From: Actibacterium sp.
GTDB lineage: Bacteria > Pseudomonadota > Alphaproteobacteria > Rhodobacterales > Rhodobacteraceae
NCBI GenBank assembly: GCA_016278325.1
Contig: JADQCB010000002.1
Coordinates: 1 to 64,000, forward strand
Length of the DNA: 64,000 nt
Reading direction: 5' to 3'
Shown here: one piece after another, positions 8,412 through 25,451 of the stretch
Position numbering within the stretch: the first letter of the stretch is position 1
Layout: each line of letters opens with the position of its first letter
Made by a program: the position numbers and the translations under genes
Notes under the pieces: model-generated
Databases searched by the model: none
What the model was told of the DNA's origin: nothing
What the model saw: only the letters and a program-made list of their open reading frames with translations

Positions 8412-9518
8412 TCAGGATTTCGGCAGCACCGGGGCCGAGCGATCGAGCGCAAGCTCGGCATCCGAGAACACCCAGGGCCCGCGCAGGCCCGGCACACCCT
8501 CGGGCGCGATCCGCAGCCCGCGCGCCACAACCTGCGGATCGGCGAAAACCTGGTCCAGCGTGTTGATCGGACCGGCGGGAACGGTCGCCGCCTCAAGCGC
8601 GCGCAGAAGATCGGCCGAGCCTTGCTGCGCGATCCGGGCCGACAGCAAAGGCTCCAGCGCGGCGCGATTGGCAACCCGGTCGGCATTGGTGGCAAAACGC
8701 GGATCATCGGCCAGGGCCGGCATTTGCAGAACCCCGCACAGGCGCCGGAACTGGCCGTCATTGCCGACCGCGACGATTACATGCCCGTCGGCGGTGGCGA
8801 AGACCTGATAGGGCACGATATTGGGATGCGCATTGCCCTGGCGCACCGGTGCCTTGCCGGTGGCCATGAAATTCATCGCCTGATTGGCCAGTGTCGCCGT
8901 GGCGCAATCCATCAGCGCCATGTCGATATACTGCCCCCGCCCGGTGGCGTGGCGCTGTTCGATCGCGGCGAGGATCCCGATCGCCCCGTAAAGCCCGGTC
9001 AGGATATCCGTGACCGCCACGCCCAGCTTCTGCGGCGGGCCGTCCGGCTCTCCGGTGATCGACATCAGCCCCGACATGCCCTGGATCAGGAAATCGTAAC
9101 CGGCCCGGTCGGCATAGGGACCGGTCTGCCCGAAACCGGTGATCGAGCAATAGACCAGCCGCGGGTTGGCCGCCGACAGGCTGTCATAATCCAGCCCGTA
9201 TTTCGCCAGCCCGCCGCGCTTGAAATTTTCCACCAGGATATCGGCATCCTGCACCAGCTCGCGCACCCGCGCCTGCCCCTCCGGGGTGCGGAAATCGGCG
9301 ACGACCGAGGTCTTGCCCCGGTTGCAGGCATAGAAATAGGCCGCGCTGCGGTCGCCGTCGCGCTCGATGAAGGGCGGGCCCCAGCGGCGGGTGTCATCGC
9401 CCTCGGGCGCCTCGACCTTGATCACCTCGGCGCCGAGATCGGCCAGGACCTGGCCGATCCATGGCCCGGCCAGGATGCGGGCCAGCTCGACCACCTTGAG
9501 CCCTTGCAGCGGCCGCAT
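8412..9518 (-). CDS. Class III (CaiB/BaiF) CoA transferase, probably glutarate-type
   Basis: A 368-residue family III CoA transferase: [30 protein letters not shown] at the N-terminus, then W-G-P-P-F-I, the catalytic Asp in [14 protein letters not shown] near residue 180, and [11 protein letters not shown]. It moves CoA between acyl-CoA and a free carboxylic acid. Its start overlaps the stop of the glutaryl-CoA dehydrogenase gene by one base (TGATG), so the likely reaction is succinyl-CoA + glutarate (or a close dicarboxylate) to glutaryl-CoA. Substrate assignment rests on the neighbour. It is the fourth gene of a sigma-54-type operon starting at 12474. Confidence 0.88.
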
Positions 9519-10738
9519 CAGAAGAACGCTTGCAGCCCGGTCTGGGCGCGGCCCAGGATCAGGGCGTGAACGTCATGCGTGCCTTCATAGGTGTTCACCG
9601 TCTCGAGATTGATCATGTGGCGGATCACCTGGTATTCCTCGGAAATGCCATTGCCGCCATGCATGTCGCGGGCCGCACGCGCGATATCCAGCGCCTTGCC
9701 GCAATTGTTGCGCTTGATCAGCGAGATCATTTCCGGCGCCGCGCGCCCCTGATCCATCAACCGCCCGACCTGCAATGCCGCCTGAAGACCCAGCGTTATC
9801 TCGGTCTGCATGTCGGCCAGCTTCTTCTGGAACAGTTGCATCTGTGCCAGCGGCTTGCCGAACTGCTTGCGGTCGAGCCCGTATTGCAGGGCCGCGTGCC
9901 AGCAGAACTCGGCCGCGCCCATCACCCCCCAGGCGATGCCATAGCGCGCCCGGTTGAGGCATCCGAACGGCCCTTTCAGCCCCTCGACACCGGGCAGCAG
10001 CGCATCTTCGCCCACCTCGACACCATCCATCACGATCTCGCCGGTGGTCGAGGCGCGCAGGCTGAGCTTGCCGTCGATCTTCGGCGCGGACAGGCCCTTC
10101 ATGCCCTTTTCCAGCACGAAGCCCCTGATCTTGCCGCCATGCGCCTCGGACCTGGCCCAGATCACGAAGACATCGGCGAAGGGGCTGTTCGAGATCCACA
10201 TCTTGCTGCCGGTCAGGCGATAACCTGTTTCGGTTCGTTCGGCGCGGGTCTTCATCGCGCCCGGGTCGCTGCCGGCATCCGGTTCGGTCAGGCCGAAACA
10301 GCCGATCAATTCGCCCGAGCACAGGCCGGGCAGGAATTTCTTCCGCTGCGCCTCGGTGCCATACGCGTAGATCGGGTAGATCACCAGAGAGCTTTGCACC
10401 GACATCATCGAGCGATAGCCCGAATCGACGCGCTCGATCTCGCGCGCGATCAACCCGTAAGTGACATAGGACGCGCCCAGCCCGCCATATTCCTCGGGCA
10501 GGGTCGCGCCCAGCAGGCCCGCCGCGCCCATCTCGGCGAACAGCGCCGGCTCGGCGCGCTCTTCGCGATAGGCGGCGGTGACACGCGGGGCAAGCTTGTC
10601 ATCGGCGAAGGCCCGCGCCCCGTCGCGCAGCATCCGCTCTTCCTCGCTCAGTTGATCCTCCAGCCGCAGCGCGTCTTCCCAGTCGAAGCGGGACATGTCG
10701 GGCGAATCCTTGGCGGGTGTCACGGTGGCGTCCATCAT
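9518..10738 (-). CDS. gcdH: Glutaryl-CoA dehydrogenase-type acyl-CoA dehydrogenase
   Basis: A 406-residue FAD-dependent acyl-CoA dehydrogenase. It has the helical N-terminus ([19 protein letters not shown]), the middle-domain signature [19 protein letters not shown], and the C-terminal catalytic Glu in [20 protein letters not shown], the arrangement found in glutaryl-CoA dehydrogenase. The family oxidises and decarboxylates glutaryl-CoA to crotonyl-CoA and passes electrons to ETF. It lies between DUF4387 and the CoA transferase; together the last two genes make a glutarate-to-crotonyl-CoA route. A related dicarboxylyl-CoA substrate is possible because the operon starts with AtuA-like and DUF4387 genes, not lysine-degradation genes. 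Confidence 0.9.
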
Positions 10739-10749
10739 GCTGTTGATCC

Positions 10750-11076
10750 TCAGGCAGCGTCGTCGATCTCGATATCCAGTAACGGTGCATATTGCTGCGC
10801 GCCGAAAATGTCACCATCCCCCGCGCTGCCGCTGGGGCGATCGCGCAAAATGGTGAACTTTATCGCATAGGCCGGGTCGTATTCGACGAAATCGGTGATT
10901 CGCGCCGGATCGATCTTCAGCAACCGGCTGATCGATCCGCGCGACAGCGCACCGGACCGCTTGACCAGGTCATAGGCGGCGGCCTCGCGGAAGATCACGT
11001 CGAAGGTGATCTTGTCGGTGCCGGCATTCTTGCTGCGAATGGTCTTGGCCAGATCGCTCAGTTTCTTGACGGACAT
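10750..11076 (-). CDS. DUF4387 domain protein
   Basis: A 108-residue soluble protein of the DUF4387 family: [20 protein letters not shown], then D-V-I-F, and [20 protein letters not shown]. Members are nearly always encoded directly behind an AtuA/DUF1446-like protein, as here (18 bp gap), and probably form a complex or subunit with it. AGGAGG followed by GGCCCCAT precedes the ATG. The family has no established reaction that I know of. In this operon it is followed by glutaryl-CoA dehydrogenase and a CoA transferase, so a role in preparing a carboxylic acid substrate is plausible but inferred. Confidence 0.85.
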
Positions 11077-11094: not shown

Positions 11095-12474
11095 TCAGGC
11101 GTCTGCGAAGGTCTTTTCGCCGACGATTGCGGTTTCGATCGGGAAAAGGTCCAACGGCTTTTCCACGGCCATCGTGTGGTTCAATGTCCAGCGATGCGCC
11201 GGGCTGGCCGGCAGAACCTCGTCGAACACGAAGGAGACGCCGCCTGCGGTGCCTTTCACGTCGGGCAGCCGGGCATAGAAAAGCTGCCGGGTGCCGGTGA
11301 TGGCCACTTCCTCGGCCATCTCGCGGGTCGGCGCGACCCCCTGGACGACGACCAGCACCTCGTGCCCGGGCCTGTCGCGCAGCGGCTCCATCTCGCCCAT
11401 GATCCCGTCGCGGCCGAACACGTTGAAATGAAGTTCCCAACCGTCCGGGCCGAACCGCTCTTCGACCTGGCGGCGGCCCCAGGCCATCACCTCGTCGACA
11501 TTGGCGATGGTATAGGGGTCGCGGATGCCGGCCATGCCGACATAGCGTTCGCCGACCTTGCCCGAACCTTCCAGCTTTACCCGCAATTCTTCGGCCGGGA
11601 CAAAGCGCATCCCCGTCACCCTTGTGGTCTTTTCCGAGACCTGTTCGTAATGGCAATCTGTCATGTCCAGCATGCCGCCGGCGACAAACTCGTGATACGG
11701 GTTGGAGCGTTCATACATCGCGTGCCCGGCGACCGAGGCGATGGTGCAGCGCTGTTCGGGATGCATGGCCGTGACCTCGACCCAGTCCCGGGTAATCTCG
11801 CCCAGGACGGTTTCCTTGGCGCCATAGGGTTCGGCACAGAAGGAGGCGCATTCCAGCACCTTGCCGAGATAGTAGGACTGCGCCTCGGGAAAGCCGTGAT
11901 AGAGCGCGGGCGCGGCGAACACCGCGCTGTCGGAACAGCGCCCGCCGATGATCACGTCGCATTTCTGCTCCAGCAGCGAAACGAACGGGTGAACACCGGC
12001 CATCGCCACGATGCGGGTTGTCGCGTCGAGCTCGTCCTCGCTCAGCTCGTCACGGGCATCGAGCCCCCGGATCGCCGAGCCCGAGCGGATCCGGCCGCGG
12101 ACAAGCTCCTTGTCCAGCTCGGAGTAGAACCAGCCGATGCGGAAGGCCGGAAGGTCATGGCGCCGGGCAATGTCGCGGATCATCTGGACATACATGTCCA
12201 CCCGCGAGTTCGACCCGGTATCCCCGGCCGACCCGATGATCATCGGCACGTCCAGCTCGCGCGCGGCAAGCAGCATCTGTTCCAGGTCGTGTTCCTGCCA
12301 GGACGCGGGGCTGGCACAGGTATCGCTGCCCAGCGGAACCGGGCCGATATCGTCGCTGCCGGAATCGGCGGCGATGTAGTCGGGCTTTTGCGCCACGCCA
12401 AGGCGGAAGCTTTCAACCTTGAGCGGGGCAAATCCCAGGTGGCCATTGGGGCAAATGATCTTGAGCGACTTCAT
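11095..12474 (-). CDS. AtuA-family (DUF1446) protein
   Basis: A 459-residue protein of the AtuA/DUF1446 family, named after acyclic-terpene utilisation. It begins KIICPNGHLGFA, continues with Y-I-A-A-D-S-G-S-D-D-I-G and IIGSAGDTGSNSRVD, and has C-D-V-I-I-G-G-R-C-S-D-S-A-V-F near residue 175. No signal peptide or membrane helix is seen. The reaction of the family is not settled. Paired with DUF4387 it heads an operon with gcdH and a CoA transferase, none of which are terpene genes, so the atu name should not be taken as function. Its promoter is a clear -24/-12 sequence 32 bp upstream. GGAGAG precedes the ATG. Confidence 0.85.
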   Translation of the reverse strand: MKSLKIICPNGHLGFAPLKVESFRLGVAQKPDYIAADSGSDDIGPVPLGSDTCASPASWQEHDLEQMLLAARELDVPMIIGSAGDTGSNSRVDMYVQMIRDIARRHDLPAFRIGWFYSELDKELVRGRIRSGSAIRGLDARDELSEDELDATTRIVAMAGVHPFVSLLEQKCDVIIGGRCSDSAVFAAPALYHGFPEAQSYYLGKVLECASFCAEPYGAKETVLGEITRDWVEVTAMHPEQRCTIASVAGHAMYERSNPYHEFVAGGMLDMTDCHYEQVSEKTTRVTGMRFVPAEELRVKLEGSGKVGERYVGMAGIRDPYTIANVDEVMAWGRRQVEERFGPDGWELHFNVFGRDGIMGEMEPLRDRPGHEVLVVVQGVAPTREMAEEVAITGTRQLFYARLPDVKGTAGGVSFVFDEVLPASPAHRWTLNHTMAVEKPLDLFPIETAIVGEKTFADA

Positions 12475-12506
12475 GAATCTCTCCAGTGTTATGTCGCCTA
12501 TCTATA

Positions 12507-12522
12507 TGCATTTTCCGTGCCA
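12507..12522 (-). promoter_or_regulatory. Sigma-54 (-24/-12) promoter of the atuA-like operon
   Basis: On the minus strand the sequence reads TGGCACGGAAAATGCA: a perfect TGGCAC -24 element, ten bases between GG and GC, and ATGCA at -12 (consensus TTGCA). The predicted start of transcription is about 12496, giving a 22-base leader before the ATG at 12474. The spacing is exactly right and an rpoN and a sigma-54 activator gene lie next door. Confidence 0.85.
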
Positions 12523-12592: not shown

Positions 12593-12632
12593 TTGCGCGC
12601 AGGTCACGCGGCGTGGTGCAAATTTCACGCCT
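12593..12632 (-). promoter_or_regulatory. Putative activator (enhancer) site pair of the atuA-like operon
   Basis: Two related 19-bp sites start 21 bp apart: TTGCGCGCAGGTCACGCGG (12593-12611) and TGGTGCAAATTTCACGCCT (12614-12632). The first shares TTGCGCGCA and TCACGC with the site at 20453 ahead of the other sigma-54 promoter. They lie 84-124 bp upstream of the -12 element, the normal place for a bacterial enhancer, and overlap the 3' end of the activator gene itself. Confidence 0.6.
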
Positions 12633-13626
12633 CGCGCATTTCCAGCTTGATCATCTGGTGGCGCAGGGCATGGCGGCTGATCTTCAGCATTGCCGCCGCA
12701 TCCTGGATATTGTGCCCCGTGGCCGAAAGCGCCTGCGCGATCAGGTCGCGCTGGAAATTCGCGGTGGCATCGTGAAACCCCTTTGCCGGTGCCTCGCCGG
12801 CGGCTTCCTCAACGCTGGGAACCGTGTCGCGCCCGGCACGCACGGTGCGCAGGATCCGGTCGGGCATGTGCCGCGGCAGCACCTCGTCATCATCTTCGAG
12901 AATGAAAATCCGCTCCAGCAGGTTTTCCAGCTCTCGCACATTTCCCGGCCAGGGATAGCGGAGGAAAATCTCGCGCACCTCGGGCGACAGGCCGCTGATG
13001 GTGCGGCCATATTGGCGGTTGAACTTGTCGATGAAATGCCGGGCCAGAATCAGCACATCCTCGCCCCTTTCGCGCAGCGGCGGGATATTCAGCGCGATGA
13101 CCTGCAACCGGTAATAGAGATCCTCGCGGAAATTTCCGGCCTTGACCTCGGACAGCAGCACCTTGTTCGTCGCGGCGATGAAGCGCACGTCCACCGGGGT
13201 CATCCGCACCGCACCGACACGGCGAAACTGATAGCTGTCGAGCAGCGACAGGAGCTTTGCCTGCAACGTCAGGTCCAGCTCGCGGATCTCGTCGAGAAAG
13301 ATCGAGCCCTTGTTGGCGGCCTCGACCAGGCCGATCTTGCGTTCGGTGGCGCCGGTAAAGGCCCCCTTTTCGTGACCGAAAAGCTCGGATTCCATGAGGT
13401 TGGCCGGGATCGCGGCGCAGTTTATGTCGGCGAATTCCTTGCCCGCGCGGGACGACTTGGCGTGGATGATGCGCGCCACCAGCCCCTTGCCGGTGCCGGT
13501 CTCGCCATAGATCAGCACCGTACGGGCCGGGCTTTTCGCCACCCGGTCGATCAGCCCCTGAAGGTTCCGGATCGTTTCGTGCGCGCCAATCAGCTTGTCG
13601 GCATAATCCGCCATTGCCCGTCCCAT
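12625..13626 (-). CDS. Sigma-54-dependent activator lacking a sensor domain
   Basis: A 333-residue bacterial enhancer-binding protein made only of an AAA+ domain and a Fis-type DNA-binding domain. Visible motifs are Walker A GETGTGKG (residues 41-48), the sigma-54 contact loop GAFTGA (88-93), Walker B GSIFLDEI (108-115), the arginine-finger region FREDLYYRL, and a C-terminal helix-turn-helix (NIQDAAAMLKISRHALRHQM). There is no receiver, GAF, PAS or other sensory domain, as in PspF. I chose the ATG at 13626 (GGGGGA 4-5 bp upstream, 11 bp after the previous stop). It is the last gene of the transporter-C45 operon and should activate both nearby -24/-12 promoters. Confidence 0.93.
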   Translation of the reverse strand: MGRAMADYADKLIGAHETIRNLQGLIDRVAKSPARTVLIYGETGTGKGLVARIIHAKSSRAGKEFADINCAAIPANLMESELFGHEKGAFTGATERKIGLVEAANKGSIFLDEIRELDLTLQAKLLSLLDSYQFRRVGAVRMTPVDVRFIAATNKVLLSEVKAGNFREDLYYRLQVIALNIPPLRERGEDVLILARHFIDKFNRQYGRTISGLSPEVREIFLRYPWPGNVRELENLLERIFILEDDDEVLPRHMPDRILRTVRAGRDTVPSVEEAAGEAPAKGFHDATANFQRDLIAQALSATGHNIQDAAAMLKISRHALRHQMIKLEMREA

Positions 13627-13637
13627 CGGTTCCCCCG

Positions 13638-14741
13638 TCAGGACGTAAGCGCGATACTCTGCCATTCGCCCGAACAGGGATTGTCGAGGCAAACATACAT
13701 CACCCGCGTGCGACAGCAATAAGCCACGCTCGACAGGGTGCGCGTGCCCCCTGCGGCGGTGCCATGCTGGCAGACCGGCGCAAGCAGCGGATCGTCGCCG
13801 TCGCGGTGTTGCGCCATGAGGCCGGCGGCATCGCCCACGCCCCAGTCGCGGCCCGGCAGCACCCGGTCGAGGAAGGCGCGCCGGCTGTGCGAGCTGTCCT
13901 CGATCCGGCTGCGCGTATCGACCAGCGTCTGCGGCGCCAGCGCGGTGGTGGTGAAATGGTTGGTTCGGCAGACCACCGGCGCGGTTTCCACCGCCACGCC
14001 GGCCGCACCCAGTTCGACCGCGGCCACCTCGCCGGCCGCATCGGCCAGGACCAGCGTGCCCCCCCCCGCATGGGCGGATCGGCGGATCATCGCCACCGCC
14101 TCGGCCACGCTTGCGGTTTCGGCCAGAAGCCGTGTCATCAGGAAATATCGCAGCCAGCCGACCGCGTGCCGACGCACGCCAACCTGCGTGTCCACCACTG
14201 CCAGGCCGGCCGCATTGAGCCCGCTGGAATAGGCGCCCGGGCTGCCAAGGCTGCCCAGGCAGAGCATCGGCCCGTGCTTCAGGTCGGGCCCGTCATGCCG
14301 GAACACCCGCTGGATGCCGGCATGCCCGCCCGAGAAATCGCGGTTCTTGACGGTAAGCGGCCCGTCCGGCCCGTCCGCCACGGCCCAGGCGCTGCACCCG
14401 TCCGACGCCCCGCCCTGCGCCTGCGCCAGATCGCGCAGCGTGCCCAGGTGCAGATGCTGGAAAAGGCTGTCCTCGGGCAGATCGAAACCCGCGGCGATAC
14501 CCGAAAGCTCGGCCATGTCATCGGGGCATTCGGCCCGGGCAAAGACCTTCTGCTGGTCGAGATAGGCGCGGGCTGTATCGCCCAGAAGCCCCGCCTCGCG
14601 CGCCGCGGCAAGCCGGTCGCGGGTGATCTGGCGCACTTCGGGCCACAGGTCTGCGCCGGCGGAGATCTGGGCCTGGCCGCGCTCGAACGGGTCCCCGACC
14701 AACGACAGCACATCGGCATTTTCCGTCGCCCGCATCGTCAT
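13638..14741 (-). CDS. C45 family self-processing acyltransferase/hydrolase
   Basis: A 367-residue Ntn-fold protein of peptidase family C45 (isopenicillin N acyltransferase/acyl-CoA:6-APA acyltransferase family). The family cleaves itself before a Cys that becomes the N-terminal nucleophile; here Cys116 in SDGCSAW fits, followed by V-K-N-R-D-F. Family members hydrolyse or transfer amide-linked acyl groups. No signal peptide is seen, so it should act in the cytoplasm on imported substrate. Its start overlaps the preceding ATPase stop by ATGA, and it is followed by the activator gene, so it is an integral part of the dipeptide-type transporter operon. The true substrate is unknown. Confidence 0.85.
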   Translation of the reverse strand: MTMRATENADVLSLVGDPFERGQAQISAGADLWPEVRQITRDRLAAAREAGLLGDTARAYLDQQKVFARAECPDDMAELSGIAAGFDLPEDSLFQHLHLGTLRDLAQAQGGASDGCSAWAVADGPDGPLTVKNRDFSGGHAGIQRVFRHDGPDLKHGPMLCLGSLGSPGAYSSGLNAAGLAVVDTQVGVRRHAVGWLRYFLMTRLLAETASVAEAVAMIRRSAHAGGGTLVLADAAGEVAAVELGAAGVAVETAPVVCRTNHFTTTALAPQTLVDTRSRIEDSSHSRRAFLDRVLPGRDWGVGDAAGLMAQHRDGDDPLLAPVCQHGTAAGGTRTLSSVAYCCRTRVMYVCLDNPCSGEWQSIALTS

Positions 14742-15763
14742 TGCACCGGGTCCAGAAGCGACAGGTTCTCGGCCAGCCGGTGACAGGCGGCCTGATGTCC
14801 GTTTCCGACGGGTTCGGTCCGGGGCGCCGTCTTTCGACAGATATCGATCGCCAGCGGGCAACGGGTGTGGAACTTGCAGCCCGCCGGCGGCGACAGCGGC
14901 GACGGCAGATCGCCGGTCAGGCGCACCCGCGCCTTGCGCGCCGAGGTCTCGACCTCGGGCACCGCCGACATCAGGCTTTGGGTATAGGGATGGCGCGGGC
15001 GGGCCAGGATCGACTCCACCGGCCCCATCTCGACGATCTCGCCCAGATACATCACCGCCACCCGGTCGCTGAGATAGCCGATCACCGAGATATCGTGCGA
15101 TATGAAAAGATAGGTCAGCCCCATTTCCTGTTTCAGGTCGGTCAGCAATTCGATGATTTGCGCCTGGATCGACACGTCCAGCGCCGAGACCGGTTCGTCG
15201 CAGACGATGAATTCGGGATTGCTGACCAGCGCCCGCGCGATACCGATGCGCTGGCGCTGCCCGCCCGAGAACTGGTGCGGATAGCGATCCAGATGCGCCG
15301 TCTTCAGGCCCACCTTCTCGACGATCGCGGCCACCTTGTCGCGCATTTCGGCCGGCGTCGGCGCCAGCCCGTGCAGCTTGAGCGGCAGCCCGACGATCTC
15401 GGCCACGGTGCGACGCGGATTGAGCGAGGCATACGGATCCTGGAAGATGATCTGCATCCGCCGGCGCATCGCCTTCATCGCCGCGTCGTCCAGCCCGGTC
15501 ACATCCACCCCGTCAAATGTGACCGTGCCGGTCGTGGGTTCGTGCAGCCGCAGGATCGAGCGCCCCAGGGTGGATTTGCCGCACCCGCTTTCGCCGATCA
15601 GGCCCAGAACCTCGCCCGCGCGGATGTCGAAACTGACATCGCTGACCGCCTGGACCCGCGTCTGCTGGCGCCCCGACAGGCGGTCGGCCAGGTTATGCCG
15701 GCCCAGATAGGTCTTGGACAGGCCGCGAATGTCGAGCAACGGATTGTCTGCCTGCGGATTCAT
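14738..15763 (-). CDS. Peptide-type ABC transporter ATPase (DppF/OppF-like)
   Basis: A 341-residue ATP-binding subunit. It carries Walker A GESGCGKST, the Q-loop at IIFQDPYASLNPRR, the ABC signature FSGGQRQR, Walker B FIVCDEPVSALD, and the switch His in FISHDISV. The C-terminal oligopeptide-ATPase extension includes GCKFHTRCPLA-x5-C with cysteines that in homologues can hold an Fe-S cluster. The ATG at 15763 overlaps the stop of the DppD-like gene by ATGA. It pairs with that protein to drive the permease dimer at 16782-18691. Substrates are probably di- or oligopeptides or amide-like compounds. Confidence 0.92.
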   Translation of the reverse strand: MNPQADNPLLDIRGLSKTYLGRHNLADRLSGRQQTRVQAVSDVSFDIRAGEVLGLIGESGCGKSTLGRSILRLHEPTTGTVTFDGVDVTGLDDAAMKAMRRRMQIIFQDPYASLNPRRTVAEIVGLPLKLHGLAPTPAEMRDKVAAIVEKVGLKTAHLDRYPHQFSGGQRQRIGIARALVSNPEFIVCDEPVSALDVSIQAQIIELLTDLKQEMGLTYLFISHDISVIGYLSDRVAVMYLGEIVEMGPVESILARPRHPYTQSLMSAVPEVETSARKARVRLTGDLPSPLSPPAGCKFHTRCPLAIDICRKTAPRTEPVGNGHQAACHRLAENLSLLDPVQ

Positions 15764-16785
15764 GCCTCGGCCTCCTGACTGGCAATCGCGGTCTCGACCC
15801 GGATGCAGCGCGCCATGCGCCGCGGGCCCGCCGGCTGCATCGCGATGGTCTTCAGGCAATCGTCGCCCGCCAGCGGGCAGCGCGAATAGAACCGGCATTG
15901 CGCCGGCAGGTCGATCAGGTCGGGCACCTGCCCCTGGATCGGGTGTATCCGTTCGCCCCGCAATGCCGGGCGCGGGATCGAGGCCAGAAGGCCCCTTGTA
16001 TAGGGGTGCTGCGGTGCCGCGATGACCTCTTGCGTCGGCCCCTGCTCGACCACCTGGCCGGCATACATCACCATCACGCGGTCGCAATGCTCGGCCACGA
16101 CGCCCAGATCGTGGGTGATCAGCACAACGCTCATGCCAAGCCTGGCGCGGATGTCGCTGATCAGCTCCAGCACCTGCGCCTGGATCGTCACGTCCAGCGC
16201 GGTGGTCGGCTCGTCCGCGATCAGCAGCTTGGGGCGCGAGGCCAGCGCGATGGCGATCATGATGCGCTGGCGCATCCCGCCAGAGAATTCATGCGGATAC
16301 TGGCGCAGCCGTTCCGCCGGAGAGGGGATGCCGACAAGGCCCAGCATCTCGACCGATCGCGCGCGGATCGCCTGGCGCCGCGCGGCACCGCGCGGCGGAA
16401 GTTCCTCGTCATGGGCTTCCAGCATCTCGCGGATCTGCTCGCCCACGGTCAGCGCGGGGTTCAGCGCGGTCAGCGCGTCCTGCATCGTCATCGCGATGTC
16501 GCGGCCCCGGATCGCCCGCATCTGGCGCGGGTCGAGCGCGCGCAGGTCCTGCCCCTCGAACAGGATCGAGCCGGCGTCGATCCGCCCCGGCGGGCGCACC
16601 AGCCCCATCACCGAGCCGAAGGTGACGCTCTTGCCCGAACCGGATTCGCCGACCACGCCCAGGCACTCGCCCCGGCGCACGGTCACGTCCACCCCGTCCA
16701 CCGCACAGACGGCGCCGGCGCGGGTGTCGAAGATCGTCCTCAGGCCGGAAACCTCCAGCAGGGTGCTTTCGTCTCGCTGCATCAT
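15760..16785 (-). CDS. Peptide-type ABC transporter ATPase (DppD/OppD-like)
   Basis: A 341-residue ATP-binding subunit with Walker [11 protein letters not shown]-loop DIAMTMQDALTALNP, signature FSGGMRQR, Walker [13 protein letters not shown], and switch His LITHDLGVV. The C-terminal OppD extension has CRFYSRCPLAGDDC. I used the first of two tandem ATGs (16785) because it overlaps the permease stop by ATGA. It forms the heterodimeric motor with the adjacent DppF-like ATPase. The whole operon (20257 down to 12625) has the order binding protein, permease B, permease C, ATPase D, ATPase F, C45, activator. Confidence 0.92.
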   Translation of the reverse strand: MMQRDESTLLEVSGLRTIFDTRAGAVCAVDGVDVTVRRGECLGVVGESGSGKSVTFGSVMGLVRPPGRIDAGSILFEGQDLRALDPRQMRAIRGRDIAMTMQDALTALNPALTVGEQIREMLEAHDEELPPRGAARRQAIRARSVEMLGLVGIPSPAERLRQYPHEFSGGMRQRIMIAIALASRPKLLIADEPTTALDVTIQAQVLELISDIRARLGMSVVLITHDLGVVAEHCDRVMVMYAGQVVEQGPTQEVIAAPQHPYTRGLLASIPRPALRGERIHPIQGQVPDLIDLPAQCRFYSRCPLAGDDCLKTIAMQPAGPRRMARCIRVETAIASQEAEA

Positions 16786-17687
16786 TCGTGGAACCTCGGA
16801 TCGAAAGCATCGCGCAGGCCCTGGCTTGCCACATTGATCGCCAGAACCAGCAGCAGGATCGCAACGCCCGGGAAGGTGCTGACCCACCAGGATTGCATGA
16901 TGAAGGCGCGGCCATCGGCCACCATCGCACCCCAGGATGCGGTCGGCGGCTGCACCCCCAGCCCGAGGAAGCTCAGGCTTGCCTCAAGGATGATCACATG
17001 CGCCATGCGGATGGTGGACACCACGATCACCGGCGACAGGATGTTGGGCAGGATCTCGCGCGTCATGATATGCCGGCTGGACGCCCCCAGGGCGCGGGCG
17101 GCCTCTACATATTCCAGCTCGCGCGTGGCCAGCGTCTCGCCCCGCACCACGCGGCAGGGAATCACCCACTCCTTGTAGACCAGGGCAAGGATGATGTTGA
17201 TCAGCCCCGGCCCCATCATCGCCATCAGGCCGATCGCGAAGATCAGATAGGGAAAACCGAGCAGGATATCGACGACGCGGGAAATCACCGTGTCCACCCA
17301 GCCGCGCAGGAACCCCGCGGCCAGCCCGGCAATGATCCCGATCGTGGTGGCGACCAGAACCACCGCCGCGCCCACGAAGATCGAGATCCGCGCGCCATAG
17401 ATGATGCGCGAAAGGATGTCGCGCCCCAGCGCATCGCAGCCCAGCACATAGGCCCAGTCGCCGCCTTCCTGCCAGGCCGGCGGCTGCAGGCGTCGGAACA
17501 GATCGGTCGTGTTCGGGTCGTGCGGCGCGATGAAAGGCGCGAAGATCGCCATCAGCACGAACAGCAGCACGACCACGGCGCTGCCCAGGGCAAGCCGGTT
17601 CTCGGCGAAGGTCGCCATGTTGCGACGAAAGATCGAATTCCCGGCCGGGGACGCCACCGCGGCCGAGCCGTTGTCGATGGCGGTCAT
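16782..17687 (-). CDS. Peptide-type ABC transporter permease (DppC-like)
   Basis: A 301-residue inner-membrane permease. A cytoplasmic N-terminus (NSIFRRNMATFAENRLALG) leads into the first helix, then a periplasmic loop with the family segment GCDALGRDILSRIIYGARIS, and four or five more helices. The EAA loop is visible as EYVEAARALGASSRHIMTREILPN. It overlaps the DppB-like gene by ATGA and the DppD-like gene by ATGA, so the four cistrons are tightly coupled. It forms the translocation pore with the DppB-like subunit. Confidence 0.92.
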   Translation of the reverse strand: MTAIDNGSAAVASPAGNSIFRRNMATFAENRLALGSAVVVLLFVLMAIFAPFIAPHDPNTTDLFRRLQPPAWQEGGDWAYVLGCDALGRDILSRIIYGARISIFVGAAVVLVATTIGIIAGLAAGFLRGWVDTVISRVVDILLGFPYLIFAIGLMAMMGPGLINIILALVYKEWVIPCRVVRGETLATRELEYVEAARALGASSRHIMTREILPNILSPVIVVSTIRMAHVIILEASLSFLGLGVQPPTASWGAMVADGRAFIMQSWWVSTFPGVAILLLVLAINVASQGLRDAFDPRFHE

Positions 17688-18691
17688 AGCTTCACCCTCG
17701 GGTTCAGGACGGTATAGAGAATGTCGGCCAGGAAATTCAGCATCACATAGGTCAGCGCGTAGAACAGCACCGCGGCCTGAACCAGCGGGTAGTTGCGCAC
17801 GAAAATGCTCTCGACGACCAGCCGTCCCAGGCCGGGCCAGCCAAAGACCGTCTCGACGATCATGTTGCCGCCCAGCAGAGAGCCGGTCTCGATCGCCGCC
17901 ACCGACACGGTGGGGATCAGCGCGTTCTTCAACGCATGCCGGAACAGGATGCGATTGCGCCGCAGGCCCTTGGCCTCGGCAAAGGTGACATAGTCCTGGC
18001 GCATCACTTCGAGCATGGATGTCCGTGTCACCCGCATCAGGATCGCGGTCATCGGCAGGCCCAGCGTGATCGCCGGCAGAATGATATGCGACAGCGCGTC
18101 GAGAAAGGCGTCGGGACGCCCGCGCAACAGCGTGTCGATCAGCAGGAAATGGGTGATCGGCTCGATCTCGCTGGAAAATCCGATCCGCCCGGACACCGGC
18201 AGGATCTGAAGCTGCACCGCGAACAGCATCAACAGCAGGATACCGAACCAGAACCCGGGCAGGGACACGCCCAGCAAAGAGCCCACGGTGGCCAGCCGGT
18301 CGGTCATGGAATTCTTCTTGATCGCGGCCACGACCCCCAGCGGGATCGCCGTGACCAGCGCGATGATAAGCGCCACGAGGCTGAGCTCGATGGTCGCGGG
18401 CAACCGCTCGGCAATAACGTCGATCACCGGGCGCCGGTGATAGAAGCTTTCGCCGAAATCCCCCTGCACCGCGTTTCCGAGAAACAGGAAAAACCGCTCA
18501 TGCACGGGCCGGTCCAGCCCGAGATCCTCGCGCATCGCGGCTTCCTGCTCGGCGGTGATGTTCTGGTCGCCGATCATGATTTCCACCGGGTCGCCCGGGG
18601 TCAGGGTGATCATCACAAAGACGATCACGCTGACGCCCAGAAGCACCGGAATCAGTTGAAGCAGACGTTCAATCAATCTTGCCAGTGACAT
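17684..18691 (-). CDS. Peptide-type ABC transporter permease (DppB-like)
   Basis: A 335-residue permease: first helix LIPVLLGVSVIVFVMITL followed directly by PGDPVEIMIGD, the classic DppB start, then a periplasmic region containing GDFGESFYHRRPV, and further helices. The EAA loop is YVTFAEAKGLRRNRILFRHALKNA. It is the first permease after the binding protein (27-bp gap) and forms the pore with the DppC-like subunit. Confidence 0.92.
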   Translation of the reverse strand: MSLARLIERLLQLIPVLLGVSVIVFVMITLTPGDPVEIMIGDQNITAEQEAAMREDLGLDRPVHERFFLFLGNAVQGDFGESFYHRRPVIDVIAERLPATIELSLVALIIALVTAIPLGVVAAIKKNSMTDRLATVGSLLGVSLPGFWFGILLLMLFAVQLQILPVSGRIGFSSEIEPITHFLLIDTLLRGRPDAFLDALSHIILPAITLGLPMTAILMRVTRTSMLEVMRQDYVTFAEAKGLRRNRILFRHALKNALIPTVSVAAIETGSLLGGNMIVETVFGWPGLGRLVVESIFVRNYPLVQAAVLFYALTYVMLNFLADILYTVLNPRVKL

Positions 18692-18718: not shown

Positions 18719-20257
18719 TTACTTCAGGCAGGCATCATGCAGGTTGATGCGGCTGTCGGGGCTGGGCTGCCAGCCGCTCAGGCGCTTCGACACACCGTAA
18801 ATGTCCTGCGGCACCCAAAGATAGGCATAGGGAACATCCGCCGCCGCGATCGCTTCGGCCTTGCGGTACATTTCGGCCCGCTTTTCACGATCGACCTCGG
18901 TCGCGGCCTCTTCCAGCAGCTTGTCGACCTCGGGGTTGGAATACCCCGCCGAATTGCCGCGTGCCGCGGTATGATGTGTCGGCATGAAGATGCCCTGCGG
19001 ATCGAGCGAGCCGTTGCCCCAGGAGGTGAAATACATGTCACCGGTCTTTTCACCGCCCTCGGTGCGCCATTTCTGCGACAGCAGCCCGCTTTCGCCCACC
19101 GCGACCTGGGTCTTGATCCCGGCCTTGGTCAGCAGCGACGCAACCGCCTGCGCGGTATCCTTGTAAGAGCCCTGCACGTCCATCGTCACCTCGATCCCGT
19201 CGGGATAGCCCGCTTCGGCCAGAAGCGCGCGCGCCTTTTCGGGGTCATAGCTGTAGCCATCCAGATCCTTGTTCTTGCCGAACGCATCGGGGCTGAGAAT
19301 GCCGTTGATGGCCTCGGCATTGCCGCCAAGGATCTTGTCGATGATCAGCTTCTTGTCGATGGCATGCGCCACCGCCTGGCGCACGCGGATATCGTCGAAG
19401 ATTTCGCCCTTCACGTTCATCGCGATGAAGAAACTGCGCGTGCCGTTCACCGTCATGACCTCGGCGTTCGGGCTGTTCCTGACCTGCTCGACCGCGAAGG
19501 GCGGCAGTTCATTGATGATATGCACGTCGCCGGCCAGCAGCGCGGCCACGCGCGAAGCGGATTCGGGAATGATCTTGAAGATCGCCCGCTCGACACAGGC
19601 CTTGCCCACCGGCGGGATGCCCGGCGCGCCGCCATAATAGTCCTCGAAACGCTCCATGATGACCGAGTCGCCCTTGCGCCACTCGACCAGCTTGAACGGG
19701 CCGGTTCCGTTCACCTGGGTCGCCAGACCCTCGGTGCCCACCTTCTCGACGAAATCCTTCGATACGACCTCCTGGAAGGGCAGCATCGCGGGCAGCAACG
19801 GCCACGGCTCGGAAAGGGTGACGCGCACGGTGTCGCCATTCACGATCTCGGCCGACTTGAACGGCCCCAGAAGGCTTGCGCGCGGGCTCGTCTGCCCGTC
19901 GCCCGTGCCGCCCTCGCTGGTCAGCCGGTCGAGCGTGAATTTCACGTCCTCGGGGGTCAGCTCGGTGCCATCGTGAAACAGGATGCCCTTGCGGATCTTG
20001 AAATCATAGACCGTGGGCGAGACCTGGGTGTAGGATTCCGCGATCTGCGGCAGGATGTTCATCCCGGAATCGCGGGTCAGGATCCCGTCATACATGTTCC
20101 GGATAATGGTTTCCGTCTCGCGGTTGCGGTGATTGCCCGGATCCAGCGTGTTCGCGTCGGCGGTGAAGCCGACGACCAGATCCTCGGCGATTGCCGCCGG
20201 CGCCATGCTTCCCAGCGCCATTGCCGAGGCCAGCATGATCCGTGTGAGATGTTTCAT
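18719..20257 (-). CDS. Dipeptide/oligopeptide-type ABC substrate-binding protein
   Basis: A 512-residue periplasmic SBP family 5 protein. The N-terminus MKHLTRIMLASAMALGSMAP with A-A-I-A/E is a Sec signal peptide, with mature start near residue 25 (EDLVVGFTADANTLDPGNH). Family features are YTQVSPTVYDFKIRKGILFHDG with the downstream L-T-P-E-D-V-K-F-T-L-D-R, and the carboxy-terminal lobe with YAYLWVPQDIYGV. It is the first gene of the seven-gene operon and lies behind the sigma-54 promoter at 20344-20359. It determines ligand choice, but the ligand cannot be read from the sequence; peptide, glutathione-like and nickel-type family members share this fold. Confidence 0.92.
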   Translation of the reverse strand: MKHLTRIMLASAMALGSMAPAAIAEDLVVGFTADANTLDPGNHRNRETETIIRNMYDGILTRDSGMNILPQIAESYTQVSPTVYDFKIRKGILFHDGTELTPEDVKFTLDRLTSEGGTGDGQTSPRASLLGPFKSAEIVNGDTVRVTLSEPWPLLPAMLPFQEVVSKDFVEKVGTEGLATQVNGTGPFKLVEWRKGDSVIMERFEDYYGGAPGIPPVGKACVERAIFKIIPESASRVAALLAGDVHIINELPPFAVEQVRNSPNAEVMTVNGTRSFFIAMNVKGEIFDDIRVRQAVAHAIDKKLIIDKILGGNAEAINGILSPDAFGKNKDLDGYSYDPEKARALLAEAGYPDGIEVTMDVQGSYKDTAQAVASLLTKAGIKTQVAVGESGLLSQKWRTEGGEKTGDMYFTSWGNGSLDPQGIFMPTHHTAARGNSAGYSNPEVDKLLEEAATEVDREKRAEMYRKAEAIAAADVPYAYLWVPQDIYGVSKRLSGWQPSPDSRINLHDACLK

Positions 20258-20343
20258 CAGTCAAGTCTCCCATCATTGGTTGAACCGTTTTTGGCTTTTT
20301 GGGTGCGCGCCTGTCTTCGCCAGGGCGCCGCCACCTTCTTGTA

Positions 20344-20359
20344 TGCAATCCCCATGCCA
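20344..20359 (-). promoter_or_regulatory. Sigma-54 (-24/-12) promoter of the transporter-C45-activator operon
   Basis: Minus strand reads TGGCATGGGGATTGCA: TGGCAT at -24 (consensus TGGCAC), ten bases between GG and GC, and a perfect TTGCA at -12. Predicted transcription start is about 20333, with a leader of about 76 bases before the ATG at 20257. It lies in the 235-bp gap between the rpoN stop and the binding-protein gene. Confidence 0.85.
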
Positions 20360-20452: not shown

Positions 20453-20492
20453 TTGCGCGCATTTCACGCAAGGGCGCGAGTTTTTCGCGCGA
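20453..20492 (-). promoter_or_regulatory. Putative activator (enhancer) site pair of the transporter operon
   Basis: Two 19-bp sites again 21 bp apart: TTGCGCGCATTTCACGCAA (20453-20471, an inverted repeat TTGCG/CGCAA) and GCGCGAGTTTTTCGCGCGA (20474-20492, GCGCGA/TCGCGC arms). The first matches 15 of 19 bases of the site at 12593. They lie about 107-147 bp upstream of the -12 element and end exactly at the rpoN stop codon. Confidence 0.6.
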
Positions 20493-21857
20493 TCAGCCGG
20501 CCCTACCGGCGGCCCCCTTGCGCCGCCGCGCGGCAGAGCCCGGGATGTTCATAAGCGTGCGATACTTGGCAACCGTGCGGCGCTGGATCTGCACCCCGCC
20601 GCTGCGCAATGTCTCGGTGATGCGCGCATCGCTCAGCGGGGCGTGGGCGGGTTCCTCGGCGATCATCCTGCGAATGCGCTGCTTGATTGCGCCAGTGGAC
20701 ACGTTGTCGGCGGCGTCATCCGAACCCGCGCGCGGAAGGCCGCGGGAAAAGAAGCTGCGCAGATCCAGCACCCCGCGCGGCGTGTCGATCGTCATCCCGC
20801 GCGTGATCCGGCTGACGGTGCTGGCATGCAGCTTTACCGCGCCGGCCACGTCCTGCAACTTCAACGGTGCGGGATGTTCGCTCGCGCCGTCAAGATAGGC
20901 CGACTGACGCCGCGCGATTTCCGCCGCGACGGCCAAGGTGCTGGCGTTGCGCTGTTCGACCGCGCGCTTCAGCCCCCGCGCCCCGGCCAGGGCCTCGGCC
21001 ACGAAGGCCTCGCGCTTCTCGTCGGCGGGCACGAGATCGTCGCGGATGACGACACCCGGCAGGGTCGAGCCGTTCAGCTCGACCGCCCATTGCCCGCCCT
21101 GTTCGACCAGCAGCAGATCCGGCGCGCGGATCGGGCCGTCGCCCTGGCCAAAGGCCAGCCCCGGCTTGGGGTCGAACTGGCGCAAGGTTGCAAGGCAATC
21201 GTGCAGCCGCGCCATGTCGCAGCCGCAGATTTCGGCCAGTGCCTGCATCCGGCCGTCGGCGACCATGTCCAGATGGTCCAGCAGGCGATCGAGCTCCGGG
21301 CTCAGCAATCCACGGTCGGCGGCCTGAAGCCGCAGGCATTCGGCCAGCGACCGCGCGAACAGGCCGGCCGGTTCGAACTGTTGCAGGACCGCCAGGACCG
21401 CCTGCGCCTCGGCCATGGACACCCCGGCATCGGCGGCAACCGCCTCGACACTGTCGCCAAGCCACCCGAACGGTTCCAGCACCTGCAGGAAAGCAAGGGC
21501 GATCCGTTTCTGCCCGGGATCGGAAATCGCCAGGCCGACCTGACGTTCCACATGATCGATCAGCCCGCCCGGCGGCGCGGCGATCGTGTCGGCCAGGCCC
21601 GCCTGTGCCTGCTCGGCGGCTTGCCGCCGCGCGGTATCGCTGGGCGCGGCGGGAATGGAAGGCCGCCCTGCCCCGTCGCGCAGGCCGTCGCCGGGCGCCT
21701 GGCGAAGCTCCAGGAACGGGTTCTGCCGGACCTTCTCGACAAGGAAGCCCTGCAACTCGGCATTGTTGAACCGCAACAGGGAAATCGCCTGTCGCAATTG
21801 CGCCGTCATCGCGAGCGTGCGTTTCTGTCGAAGGTTGAGTGACGATGTCAGCTGCAT
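20493..21857 (-). CDS. rpoN: RNA polymerase sigma-54 factor, accessory copy
   Basis: A 454-residue sigma-54. Region I begins MQLTSSLNLRQKRTLAMTAQ and continues through the Leu/Gln-rich segment to FLVEKVRQNPFLEL. The core-binding domain, the helix-turn-helix (LKLHASTVSRITRG) and the carboxy-terminal RpoN box RRTVAKYRTLMNIP are all present, so the gene looks intact. I chose the ATG at 21857; an upstream TTG is poorer. Housekeeping rpoN is usually beside lptB, hpf and ptsN, which are absent, so this is probably an extra copy like those known in Rhodobacter. It follows a transporter operon by 90 bp and faces two -24/-12 promoters downstream. Confidence 0.93.
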   Translation of the reverse strand: MQLTSSLNLRQKRTLAMTAQLRQAISLLRFNNAELQGFLVEKVRQNPFLELRQAPGDGLRDGAGRPSIPAAPSDTARRQAAEQAQAGLADTIAAPPGGLIDHVERQVGLAISDPGQKRIALAFLQVLEPFGWLGDSVEAVAADAGVSMAEAQAVLAVLQQFEPAGLFARSLAECLRLQAADRGLLSPELDRLLDHLDMVADGRMQALAEICGCDMARLHDCLATLRQFDPKPGLAFGQGDGPIRAPDLLLVEQGGQWAVELNGSTLPGVVIRDDLVPADEKREAFVAEALAGARGLKRAVEQRNASTLAVAAEIARRQSAYLDGASEHPAPLKLQDVAGAVKLHASTVSRITRGMTIDTPRGVLDLRSFFSRGLPRAGSDDAADNVSTGAIKQRIRRMIAEEPAHAPLSDARITETLRSGGVQIQRRTVAKYRTLMNIPGSAARRRKGAAGRAG

Positions 21858-21947: not shown

Positions 21948-23564
21948 TCAGGCAGCGCCGTCACCCTGCGCGGCCAGCGTGCGGTCCAGCCAGCCGACCT
22001 CCATCTCGGGGACCGAGGACAGCAAGAGCGCGGTATAGTCGGCATGCGGCGGTGACAGGATATCCTCTTTCATGCCCTTTTCGACCACGCGGCCCTGATA
22101 CATCACCACGATCTCGTCCGAGATGGCGCGCACCGTGGCGATGTCATGAGTGATGAAGATATAGCTGACGCCCAGATCCTTCTGCAACCGCATCAGCAGC
22201 TTGAGAATGCCGTCCTGCACGATCTGGTCCAGCGCCGAGGTCACCTCGTCGCAAATGATCACCTCGGGATCGGCGGCCAGCGCACGGGCAATGCAGATCC
22301 GCTGTTTCTGGCCCCCCGAAAGCTCCCCCGGCAGGCGATCGAGAAAACTGTCGTCGAGCTCGATCATTTGCAGAAGCTCGGAAACCCGGGCATCGACCTC
22401 GGCGCCGGTCTTTGCGAAATAGAACTGCACCGGGCGGCCGATGATCTCGCGCACCGTCTGGCGCGGGTTCATCGCGGTGTCGGCCATCTGATAGATCATC
22501 TGGATCCGGCGCAGATCCTCCTTGCTGCGGCCCGCCAGATCGGGGGCCAGATCCTGACCGTTGAACCGCACGCCCCCGTCGGTCGGCGGCAAAAGCCCGG
22601 TGATCACCCGCGCCGCGGTCGATTTGCCCGAACCGGATTCGCCCACGACCGCGACCGTCCGCCCGCGCGGCACGTCAAAGCTGACATCCTCCAGCACCGG
22701 CCGGGTGCCATAGGCGGCCGTCACCCCGCGCACTTCCAGCACCTTGTCGGCGCTGCCCTCGCCCGGCTTGCGGATCGAGCGCACGGCCCAGAGCGACCGG
22801 GTATAGGGCTGTTTCGGTGCGCGCAGCATGGTTTCGGTGTCGGCTTCCTCGATCTCCTCGCCGTGGCGCAAGACCTTGATACGGTCGGCCATCTGCGCCA
22901 CCACCGCCAGATCGTGGGTGATATAGATCGCCGCGGTATCGAACCGCTTCACCGCGCCGCGCATTGCCGCCAGCACATTGACCTGCGTGGTCACGTCCAG
23001 CGCGGTCGTGGGTTCGTCGAACACGATCAGGTCGGGGCGGCAGGCCATCGCCATTGCCGTCATCGCACGCTGCAACTGCCCGCCCGACACCTGGTGCGGA
23101 AAGCGGTCGCCGAAATGCTCCGGGTCGGGCAGATCCATCGCGCGATACAGCTCCACCGCCGTTTCGCGGGCATTGTCCGGGCGCAGCACCCCGTGGCGGA
23201 TCCCGGATTCGACCGTCTGATCGAGCAGTCGATGCGCCGGGTTGAACGCCGCTGCCGCGGATTGCGCGACATAGGCGATCCGCGCACCGCGCAAGCGTTG
23301 CTTCTGGCGCTCCGACGCCCGCATCAGGTCGACCCCGTCGAACAGGATCTCGCCGCCGGTCAGCCGGCAGCCGGGCCGGGCGAACCCCATCGCCGCCAGA
23401 CCGAGGGTCGATTTCCCCGCCCCGGATTCGCCGATCAGGCCGAGAACCTCGCCCTTGCGCAGGGTCAGATCCACACCCTTGATGATCTCGTGCCACTGCT
23501 CGTCGGCGAAACCGTCGATCCGGACATCGCGCATTCGCAGCAGGATATCGGCCTCAGAACTCAT
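21948..23564 (-). CDS. Fused double-domain peptide-type ABC ATPase (DppD-DppF)
   Basis: A 538-residue protein with two complete ABC domains in tandem, as in YejF. The first half has Walker [10 protein letters not shown], signature VSGGQLQR and Walker [13 protein letters not shown]; the second has Walker [10 protein letters not shown], signature LSGGQKQR and Walker [15 protein letters not shown]. It supplies both motors of the second peptide-type transporter. Its start overlaps the preceding permease by 11 bp. rpoN lies 90 bp downstream on the same strand and could be cotranscribed, though the gap leaves room for its own promoter. Confidence 0.92.
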
Positions 23565-24474
23565 CGCGCAGCCCGCTTGTCTTCATCAGGAACCAGTCGA
23601 CGACGAAATTCACCGCCACCGTCAGCAGCGCGATCGCCGCGGCGGGCAGTAGCGGGGTAAGCCCCGCCTTCAGGTCATATTGCGCGAACTGGATCAGCGC
23701 CGCGTTCTCGCGCACCATCGAGCCCCAGTCCGCGGTCGGCGGCTGGATGCCGACCCCAAGAAAGCTGAGCGCGGCGATGGTCAGGAAGACGAAGCAGAAT
23801 CGCAGCCCGAACTCGGCCACCAGGGGCGGCATGATATTGGGCAGGATCTCGCGCCGCATCACCCAGCCCAGCCTTTCGCCGCGCAGGCGGGCCGCCTCGA
23901 CATAATCCATCACCACCACGTTCATCGCCACCGCCCGGGCCAGCCGGAACACCCGGGTCGAATCCAGCACGGCGATGATCGCGATCAGCGAAACCGCCGA
24001 GGCGCCGAAGATCGACAACAGCATCAGCGCGAAGATCAGGCTGGGGATGGCCATCAGGACATCGACCAGACGCGACAGGACCTGGTCGACCCAGCCCCGG
24101 CTGATCGCCGCCATCAACCCCATGCCGCCACCGATCAGGAAGGCCAGGAAGGTGGTCGCCAGTGCGATGCCGATCGTGTTGCGCGCCCCGTAGATCAGCC
24201 GCGACAGCACGTCGCGCCCGATCTGGTCGGTGCCGAAGGGAAATTGCGCGCTCCACGGGGCATAGGGCGTGTCGAAGATCTCGGCCTCGCCATGCGGTGC
24301 GATCCAGGGCGCGAACAGCGCGACAAGCAGGTAGCACAGGATCACGAACATCCCGAACCACGCGGTCCAGGGCGCCTTGCGCAGTTCGATCAGCGTCCGC
24401 TCGCGCCAGCCGCGGCGCGTGTGCACGATCGCCGCTTCCTGCCGGGCCGAATATGTCTGGTCGGTCTCGCTCAT
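23554..24474 (-). CDS. Peptide-type ABC transporter permease (DppC-like), second system
   Basis: A 306-residue membrane protein. A long cytoplasmic N-terminus precedes [26 protein letters not shown], then [21 protein letters not shown], and the EAA loop [23 protein letters not shown]. It overlaps the DppB-like gene (ATGA) and the fused ATPase gene (11 bp). With 24471-25451 it forms the pore of the second transporter, whose binding protein is encoded divergently at 25703. Confidence 0.92.
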
Positions 24475-25451
24475 CGCGGGTGCAGCAACCTCGGGTTGGT
24501 GACGATGGATATGATATCGGCCAGCAGGTTCAGCAGAATGTAGGTCGCCGCGAAGATCAGCGCGCAGGCCTGCACCACCGGGATGTCGCGCGCCGTCACC
24601 GCATCGACCATGAGCTGCCCGATTCCGGGATAGACGAAGACGACCTCGACCACGACCACCCCGACGACCAGATAGGCCAGGTTGAAGGCGATCACGTTGA
24701 CGATCGGGGCCCAGGCATTGGGCAGGGCGTGATGCAGGATCACCCGCCGGCCGGAAAGCCCCTTCAGCCGGGCCATCTCGATATAGGGGCTGGCCAGCAG
24801 GTTTATGATCGCCGCCCGGGTCATGCGCATCATGTGCGCGACGATCACCAGCGTCAGCGTCATCGACGGCAGCGCGGTAAGGTATATGCGTTCAAGCAGC
24901 GGCGTGCGGGGCGTGACCGCGGCCAGGGTCGGAAAGACCGGGACCAGCGTCGAAAGCAGCAGGATCAGGATGTAGGCGACGAAGAATTCCGGCATGGAAA
25001 TCGTGCTCAGCGTGCCGGCATTCACGATCCGGTCATAAAGCGAGTTGCGATAGAGCGCCGCCGTCACCCCCAGGAACAGCGCCAGCGGCACCGCGATGAT
25101 CGCGGTCATCGCGGCCAGGAACAGCGTGTTCATCAACCGCGGCGCGATCAGATCGACCACCTCGCGCGAGCGGTCGACCCCCGATGACGCCCGCCCCGAG
25201 AAGGAGGTGCCGAAATCGCCCTGAAGGACCGATCCGATCCAGTCGAAATACCGGATCCAGGCCGGTTGATCGAGGCCGAGCTCATGTCGGAAGGCCGCGA
25301 CCGTTTCCCTGGTGGCGGCCTGCCCCAGCACGGCTTCGGTGAAATCCCCCGGCAGGAACTCTATGGCGCTGAAGATGACGATCGAAACCAGGAACAGCGT
25401 GAAAAGACCAAGGCCCAGACGCTGCAGAATGGTCCGGATGATCGGATGCAC
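24471..25451 (-). CDS. Peptide-type ABC transporter permease (DppB-like), second system
   Basis: A 326-residue permease beginning with a GTG codon and the helix LGLFTLFLVSIVIFSAIEFL, then PGDFTEAVLGQAATRE, GDFGTSFSGRASSGVDRSRE, and the EAA loop YIEMARLKGLSGRRVILHHALPNA. GGGAGG lies upstream of the start. It is the first gene of the operon that continues through the DppC-like and fused ATPase genes to rpoN. The 251-bp region to the divergent binding-protein gene should hold two promoters; I found no convincing -24/-12 element there. Confidence 0.9.
   Translation of the reverse strand: MHPIIRTILQRLGLGLFTLFLVSIVIFSAIEFLPGDFTEAVLGQAATRETVAAFRHELGLDQPAWIRYFDWIGSVLQGDFGTSFSGRASSGVDRSREVVDLIAPRLMNTLFLAAMTAIIAVPLALFLGVTAALYRNSLYDRIVNAGTLSTISMPEFFVAYILILLLSTLVPVFPTLAAVTPRTPLLERIYLTALPSMTLTLVIVAHMMRMTRAAIINLLASPYIEMARLKGLSGRRVILHHALPNAWAPIVNVIAFNLAYLVVGVVVVEVVFVYPGIGQLMVDAVTARDIPVVQACALIFAATYILLNLLADIISIVTNPRLLHPR

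Follow-up and report, generated by a model that had tools for sequence, protein, structure and literature searches.

A probable cluster-bound, specialised sigma-54 factor as the only RpoN detected in an Actibacterium genome

The whole stretch of Actibacterium DNA analysed here, 64,000 nucleotides in length and referred to as the window, carries a complete rpoN gene, predicted to encode a sigma-54 factor, on its minus strand (Table 1). The genes that follow 3' of rpoN all lie on the same strand, in the order SBP2, dppB, dppC, dppD, dppF, C45 hydrolase (AAT), bacterial enhancer-binding protein (bEBP), AtuA, DUF4387, acyl-CoA dehydrogenase and CoA-transferase. Upstream of rpoN, and in the same orientation, is a peptide-type ABC transporter operon made up of the ORFs 24471-25451, 23554-24474 and 21948-23564. 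The first-pass annotation had correctly placed rpoN behind this operon, which adjoins rpoN only in the window's genus.

Table 1. Genes and predicted regulatory sites at the rpoN locus (window coordinates).
Feature	Position	Strand	Remarks
CoA-transferase family III	8412..9518	-	outside conserved core
Acyl-CoA dehydrogenase	9518..10738	-	outside conserved core
DUF4387 protein (PF14330)	10750..11076	-	
AtuA-family protein (PF07287)	11095..12474	-	
-24/-12 promoter of the AtuA operon, TGGCACGGAAAATGCAT	12506..12522	-	
Predicted UAS, GCGTGACCTGCGCGCA	12594..12609	-	~87 bp upstream of the AtuA promoter
bEBP	12625..13626	-	Walker A, GAFTGA, Fis-type HTH; no N-terminal sensor domain
C45 autoproteolytic acyltransferase/hydrolase (AAT, PF03417)	13638..14741	-	
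dppF-like ATPase	14738..16087	-	longest ORF; true start probably further downstream, near the dppD end
dppD-like ATPase	15760..16887	-	longest ORF; true start probably nearer 16785
dppC-like permease	16782..17687	-	
dppB-like permease	17684..18691	-	
SBP2, family 5 peptide-type solute-binding protein	18719..20257	-	
-24/-12 promoter of the SBP2 operon, TGGCATGGGGATTGCAT	20343..20359	-	
Predicted UAS, GCGTGAAATGCGCGCA	20454..20469	-	~110 bp upstream of the SBP2 promoter
rpoN	20493..21857	-	complete sigma-54, 454 aa; sole rpoN detected in the genome
Peptide-type ABC transporter operon upstream of rpoN	21948..25451	-	two permeases, fused ATPase

The limits of the rpoN reading frame were exact, with an ATG at 21857 and a stop at 20493. 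All three sigma-54 domains were found over their Pfam cut-offs: region I (AID, PF00309; 5.8e-13, ORF residues 12-57), the core-binding domain (CBD, PF04963; 4.5e-38) and the DNA-binding domain (DBD, PF04552; 3.3e-46). The NCBIfam model TIGR02395 (rpoN_sigma) scored the protein at 329 bits, over its cut-off of 277; the sequence RRTVAKYR forms the RpoN box, and solved RpoN chains align with the protein. The original description of a complete sigma-54 with region I and an RpoN box is therefore borne out, and the predicted role of the protein is to act with RNA polymerase at -24/-12 promoters.

Sigma-54 is usually described as a single global factor per cell that serves many activators. In the family to which the window belongs, only 93 of the 295 genera sampled carry PF04552 over the cut-off, so that by this model about two thirds are without sigma-54. 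A PF04552 search of the window's genome (3.25 Mb, 62 contigs, 99.76% complete) returned a single rpoN and no second copy in this draft. On contig C46, where the canonical locus lies, the gene order is lptC-lptA-lptB-hpf-ptsN, and no rpoN separates lptB from hpf. The gene thus lies outside the lptB-hpf-ptsN context, as had been proposed, but it is not an accessory gene if that means an extra copy, since it is the only rpoN in the genome by this search. The copy belonging to the cluster (the module copy) was also the sole rpoN in nine of 12 genera (G000, G001, G013, G099, G139, G154, G177, G193 and G304); the other three (G224, G230 and G279) have another rpoN besides it, and certain module-bearing genomes hold two or more. 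Among named relatives, Maritimibacter sp. HL-12 and Thioclava atlantica 13D2W-2 each had the module rpoN as their single copy, and Actibacterium sp. MT2.3-13A had two rpoN genes.

The phylogenetic position of the protein was assessed with two trees. In a tree of 110 RpoNs the canonical copies fell on one side (98 SH-aLRT), and the other side held nif-linked, flagella-linked and other specialised copies together with 12 module copies, which formed one group (94 SH-aLRT). In a 61-row tree with bootstraps, the canonical, nif-linked, flagella-linked and E18 groups were firm, and the window's RpoN again lay outside the canonical clade (99/94). A firm single clade of module RpoNs was unsupported in the latter tree, being kept in 14% of bootstrap trees, and the module RpoNs may be paraphyletic to the specialised clade E18. 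What can safely be said from these alignments is that the window's RpoN is of neither the housekeeping, the nif-linked nor the flagella-linked type. Of the reading given in the first-pass annotation, the specialised character is upheld by this grouping with specialised copies, away from the lptB-rpoN-hpf clade and its housekeeping members, while the picture of an accessory factor working beside a housekeeping copy has to be given up.

These data bear on two other accounts of the gene. That rpoN is decaying or inactive might be suggested by the region I score, which is below those of the other two domains, and by the absence of rpoN from most of the family. Yet the gene is full length, its frame shows no disruption, its three domains exceed their cut-offs and its RpoN box is intact; moreover, the RpoN of a member of the same genus is 78% identical across the full length, and the promoters and the GAFTGA motif of the activator are retained, which makes decay extremely improbable. 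The second account holds that the old housekeeping gene has simply moved from the lptB-hpf-ptsN locus. A canonical locus devoid of rpoN and a single copy elsewhere are what such a move would leave behind, but the separation from the canonical copies in both trees argues against it, as does the presence of both a module copy and a canonical copy in the genomes G224 and G230. We consider relocation very improbable. The protein still resembles housekeeping RpoN from the lptB-rpoN-hpf-ptsN locus in its three-domain family and RpoN box, differing in locus and clade, and the housekeeping copy itself was not found in this genome.

Twelve or more genera of the family share the order rpoN-SBP2-dppBCDF-AAT-bEBP-AtuA-DUF4387, as judged from the neighbourhoods of about 95 rpoN genes, some of which lie on contigs that end early and show part of the neighbourhood only. 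A scan with an SBP2 alignment yielded 80 named loci, where the RpoN sequence alone as query had found nothing. At 42 of the 80, nearly all from Rhodobacterales, rpoN was in the neighbourhood, with the above gene order at about 40; the other 38 (Stappia, Neorhizobium, Ciceribacter, Microvirga, Roseomonas, Saccharospirillum and others) had no neighbouring rpoN. The gene was present in 48 of 50 cluster-bearing genomes checked, and genomes with an unlinked cluster had exactly one rpoN, elsewhere, except for two without any. The clusters of Stappia, Neorhizobium, Ciceribacter and Microvirga have the same genes, order, bEBP and -24/-12 promoters as that of the window; they differ in that no rpoN is linked, one being located elsewhere, and in that their SBP2 promoter never has the sequence GCAT at its -12 element.

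In Oceaniglobus (G351) and Boseongicola (G354) the cluster was kept, but no rpoN was found, the bEBP loop read GSFAGA and no -24/-12 promoter was recognisable; the absence of rpoN rests here on draft genomes and is not proof, although the three losses agree. At the sequence level, the sigma factor, the activator loop and the promoters are thus kept or lost together. Degenerate cluster bEBPs, with GSFAGA or GTLAGA loops, were seen at L242:1395-2363, L245:6985-7992 and L248:3472-4497. Those of L242 and L245 belong to genomes without rpoN and may act with another form of RNA polymerase.

The promoters predicted upstream of the SBP2 and AtuA operons both fit TGGCAY-N6-TGCAT. This strict pattern matched the genome at exactly these two places, and a reversed control pattern gave no match. 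The looser TGGCAYGN5TGCW had four genomic matches, two of them the cluster promoters, and its control also gave four, so that matches beyond the cluster promoters are at chance level. Since almost all rpoN-linked clusters have a -24/-12 promoter in front of each of the two operons, the connection of rpoN to the promoters at 12507 and 20344, raised by the first-pass annotation, is strongly supported. In 14 genomes believed to have only module-type rpoN, the strict pattern occurred two to eight times per genome, one or two of these occurrences being in the cluster; in four of them (the window's genome, G001, G099 and G177) the two cluster promoters were the sole strict matches. Genomes without rpoN had 0 to 6 matches, and the strict pattern by itself is therefore uninformative outside the cluster.

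A palindromic candidate upstream activator site, GCGTGANNTGCGCGCA, was located 5' of both promoters. Exact copies occurred genome-wide only at these two places, and four further places matched with one mismatch. The upstream dyad was recovered at 41 of 43 rpoN-linked loci for SBP2 and at 22 of 34 for AtuA, versus 0.7 in shuffles in either case, and its distances to the promoter grouped near 54, 64, 77, 86 and 109 bp (Rayleigh R 0.67 at period 11); as the rpoN-linked loci are related to one another, these dyad and spacing statistics overstate the case. Distance steps of about 11 bp would be expected if the activator needs to stand on one face of the helix.

It had been suggested that this RpoN might recognise its promoters by, for example, the final base, T or C, of their -24 element. 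This base did not discriminate, because both TGGCAC and TGGCAT were found with and without a linked rpoN, and the -24 elements of linked and unlinked promoters were alike in kind. The bases that differed were those at -11 and -10. Among SBP2 promoters, AT came after the GC of the -12 element (GCAT; -11A, -10T) in 39 of 41 with a linked rpoN and in none of 21 without one. For the AtuA promoters the counts were 32 of 34 linked and eight of 16 unlinked. This pattern may reflect an altered base preference of the window's RpoN. A shift at -11 is plausible because differing recognition of this position reportedly contributes to the distinction between RpoN1 and RpoN2 of Cereibacter (Rhodobacter) sphaeroides (PMC11999139). 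We also looked for module-specific recognition residues that might explain GCAT, defined as present in at least 80% of module and at most 15% of canonical RpoNs, and none in the HTH or the RpoN box passed this filter. The residues differing between module and canonical proteins were mostly in the core-binding domain, and most were common to other specialised RpoNs.

The GCAT signature can, however, be read in another way, namely as a mark of the shared ancestry of the Rhodobacterales clusters that is silent on the preference of RpoN. The mutual relatedness of the linked loci, the AT in half of the unlinked AtuA promoters and the lack of any recognition residue marking the clade all agree with this; the sharp division among SBP2 promoters, and the persistence of the signature across diverged spacers and at two separate promoters, do not. 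We give this explanation about an even chance. We advance only tentatively, and as a rather doubtful proposal, that the cluster is a self-contained module whose sigma factor has shifted its preference to -11A/-10T and would thereby be orthogonal to housekeeping sigma-54, with two promoters as the whole sigma-54 regulon in some members of the family, that of the window included.

The cluster bEBP is a protein of 333 aa with an AAA+ domain, containing Walker A and GAFTGA, and a C-terminal Fis-type HTH. It is similar to PspF-type bEBPs without an N-terminal domain, which share this architecture and a length of about 330 aa, but its score of 250.8 bits fell below the cut-off of 443.55 for assignment to the PspF family. 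Unlike PspF, moreover, it lies with a sigma factor of its own and a catabolic operon, and no PspA-like inhibitor was identified for it. The other NtrC-family regulators of the genome (one NtrC-like, one NtrX-like and two DctD-like) are without GAFTGA, as expected for a lineage that has no housekeeping sigma-54.

One regulator outside the cluster retains a similar motif. This LuxO-like response regulator (L095:6155-7666, minus strand, contig C35) carries GSFTGA and adjoins a hybrid histidine kinase. At 60% identity or more it was found in seven of 10 near relatives with rpoN and in none of 13 without (Fisher ~5e-4), and a search near its gene gave no convincing sigma-54 promoter. Because it tracks rpoN, the regulon may exceed the peptide/AtuA cluster, and the LuxO-like regulator may be a second client of the window's RpoN.

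Taken together, these findings make it very probable that the window's RpoN is a specialised sigma-54, bound to its cluster, and that it came to be the only one in the cell. The cluster carries its own rpoN at its head, its own short PspF-like bEBP in the first operon, and two predicted promoters with their candidate activator sites. A bEBP hexamer would bind the palindrome some 50-115 bp upstream of the SBP2 or AtuA promoter and, with looping of the DNA, would remodel the RNA polymerase that holds the window's RpoN there, by means of ATP and its GAFTGA loop. As the bEBP gene is inside the SBP2 operon, activation would feed back on itself; as the bEBP has no sensor domain, the on/off signal would come from a partner protein or from the amount of bEBP. 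The products are predicted to import a peptide-like or acyl-amide substrate, which the C45 hydrolase would cleave and which would then be degraded via AtuA, DUF4387 and, in the window's genus, the acyl-CoA enzymes. In a family that has largely lost sigma-54, the cluster may have persisted by bringing its own, which in the window's cell would be the sole one.

Against this stands the possibility that the protein is a general sigma-54 for any GAFTGA activator, including the LuxO-like regulator, with a gene order left over from a single transfer. It is, after all, the only sigma-54 found in the genome; the LuxO-like GSFTGA regulator is retained and follows rpoN among relatives; the upstream neighbours of rpoN vary by genus; and the RpoN box and recognition segments hold no module-specific residue. 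That view is difficult to reconcile with the fact that 12 genera, and some 40 of the named loci, preserve the adjacency even though mutual identity of the module RpoNs drops to as low as ~40%. Furthermore, every exact module-type promoter of the genome sits in the cluster, and in genomes that have a housekeeping rpoN the cluster comes without a linked copy. We therefore regard a general role as unlikely and prefer a sigma factor bound to its cluster.

Specialised RpoN-bEBP pairs are already known from C. sphaeroides, in which the paralogues RpoN1, RpoN2 and RpoN3 work with the cognate bEBPs NifA, FleQ and AprX, respectively, on promoter sets of their own (PMC11999139). The window resembles this arrangement in that its RpoN stands apart from the housekeeping clade and has a linked GAFTGA bEBP and its own promoters. 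It differs in that the RpoN is a single copy rather than one of several, that the client is a peptide/AtuA catabolic cluster, and that the bEBP lacks a sensor domain. G076, a genome taken to be Cereibacter-like from its four rpoN genes and their contexts, has no RpoN that groups with that of the window. What appears to be new is a further specialised RpoN lineage, its link to a catabolic cluster and its standing as the sole sigma-54 of a cell; the open-access literature yielded no useful paper on DUF4387 or AtuA in such clusters, and an earlier description is possible.

A catabolic cluster with its own sigma-54 is noteworthy in a family in which so few genera have any. The rpoN-less form of the cluster in other orders, together with the joint loss of GAFTGA and promoters where rpoN is lacking, amounts to a natural experiment on the gain, upkeep and loss of sigma-factor dependence, and a cell with perhaps no more than two sigma-54 promoters would offer a simple setting in which to examine the specificity of sigma-54.

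Several other rpoN genes were noted during the survey. Further specialised clades of the family each lie in a cluster of their own: L111 with nifS/nifV-like genes, L114 with flagellin, FlhB and a bEBP, L129 (a clade of 18 genera) with rhodanese and hydantoinase genes, L176 with a phenol/propane-type hydroxylase, and L191 in a PAS-bEBP cluster. A cluster-bound sigma-54 may thus be the rule in this family. Within the L239/L237 pair, Paenochrobactrum has its sole, housekeeping-like rpoN beside the cluster on the opposite strand, and in Aquamicrobium a second, long-branched rpoN adjoins the cluster; neither has a GCAT promoter. Both cases speak against the cluster-bound reading, as do the additional rpoN copies of certain module-bearing genomes and the loose grouping of the module RpoNs in the 61-row tree. 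A Hoeflea bin (L222) holds a housekeeping-like rpoN plus a module whose RpoN is 82% identical to that of Pseudotabrizicola alkalilacus, reflecting either transfer or a mis-binned contig. Finally, the canonical-locus RpoNs of L150, L185 and L168 have unusual recognition helices (STVGR, ATLGR) and long branches, and look as if they were decaying or changing specificity.
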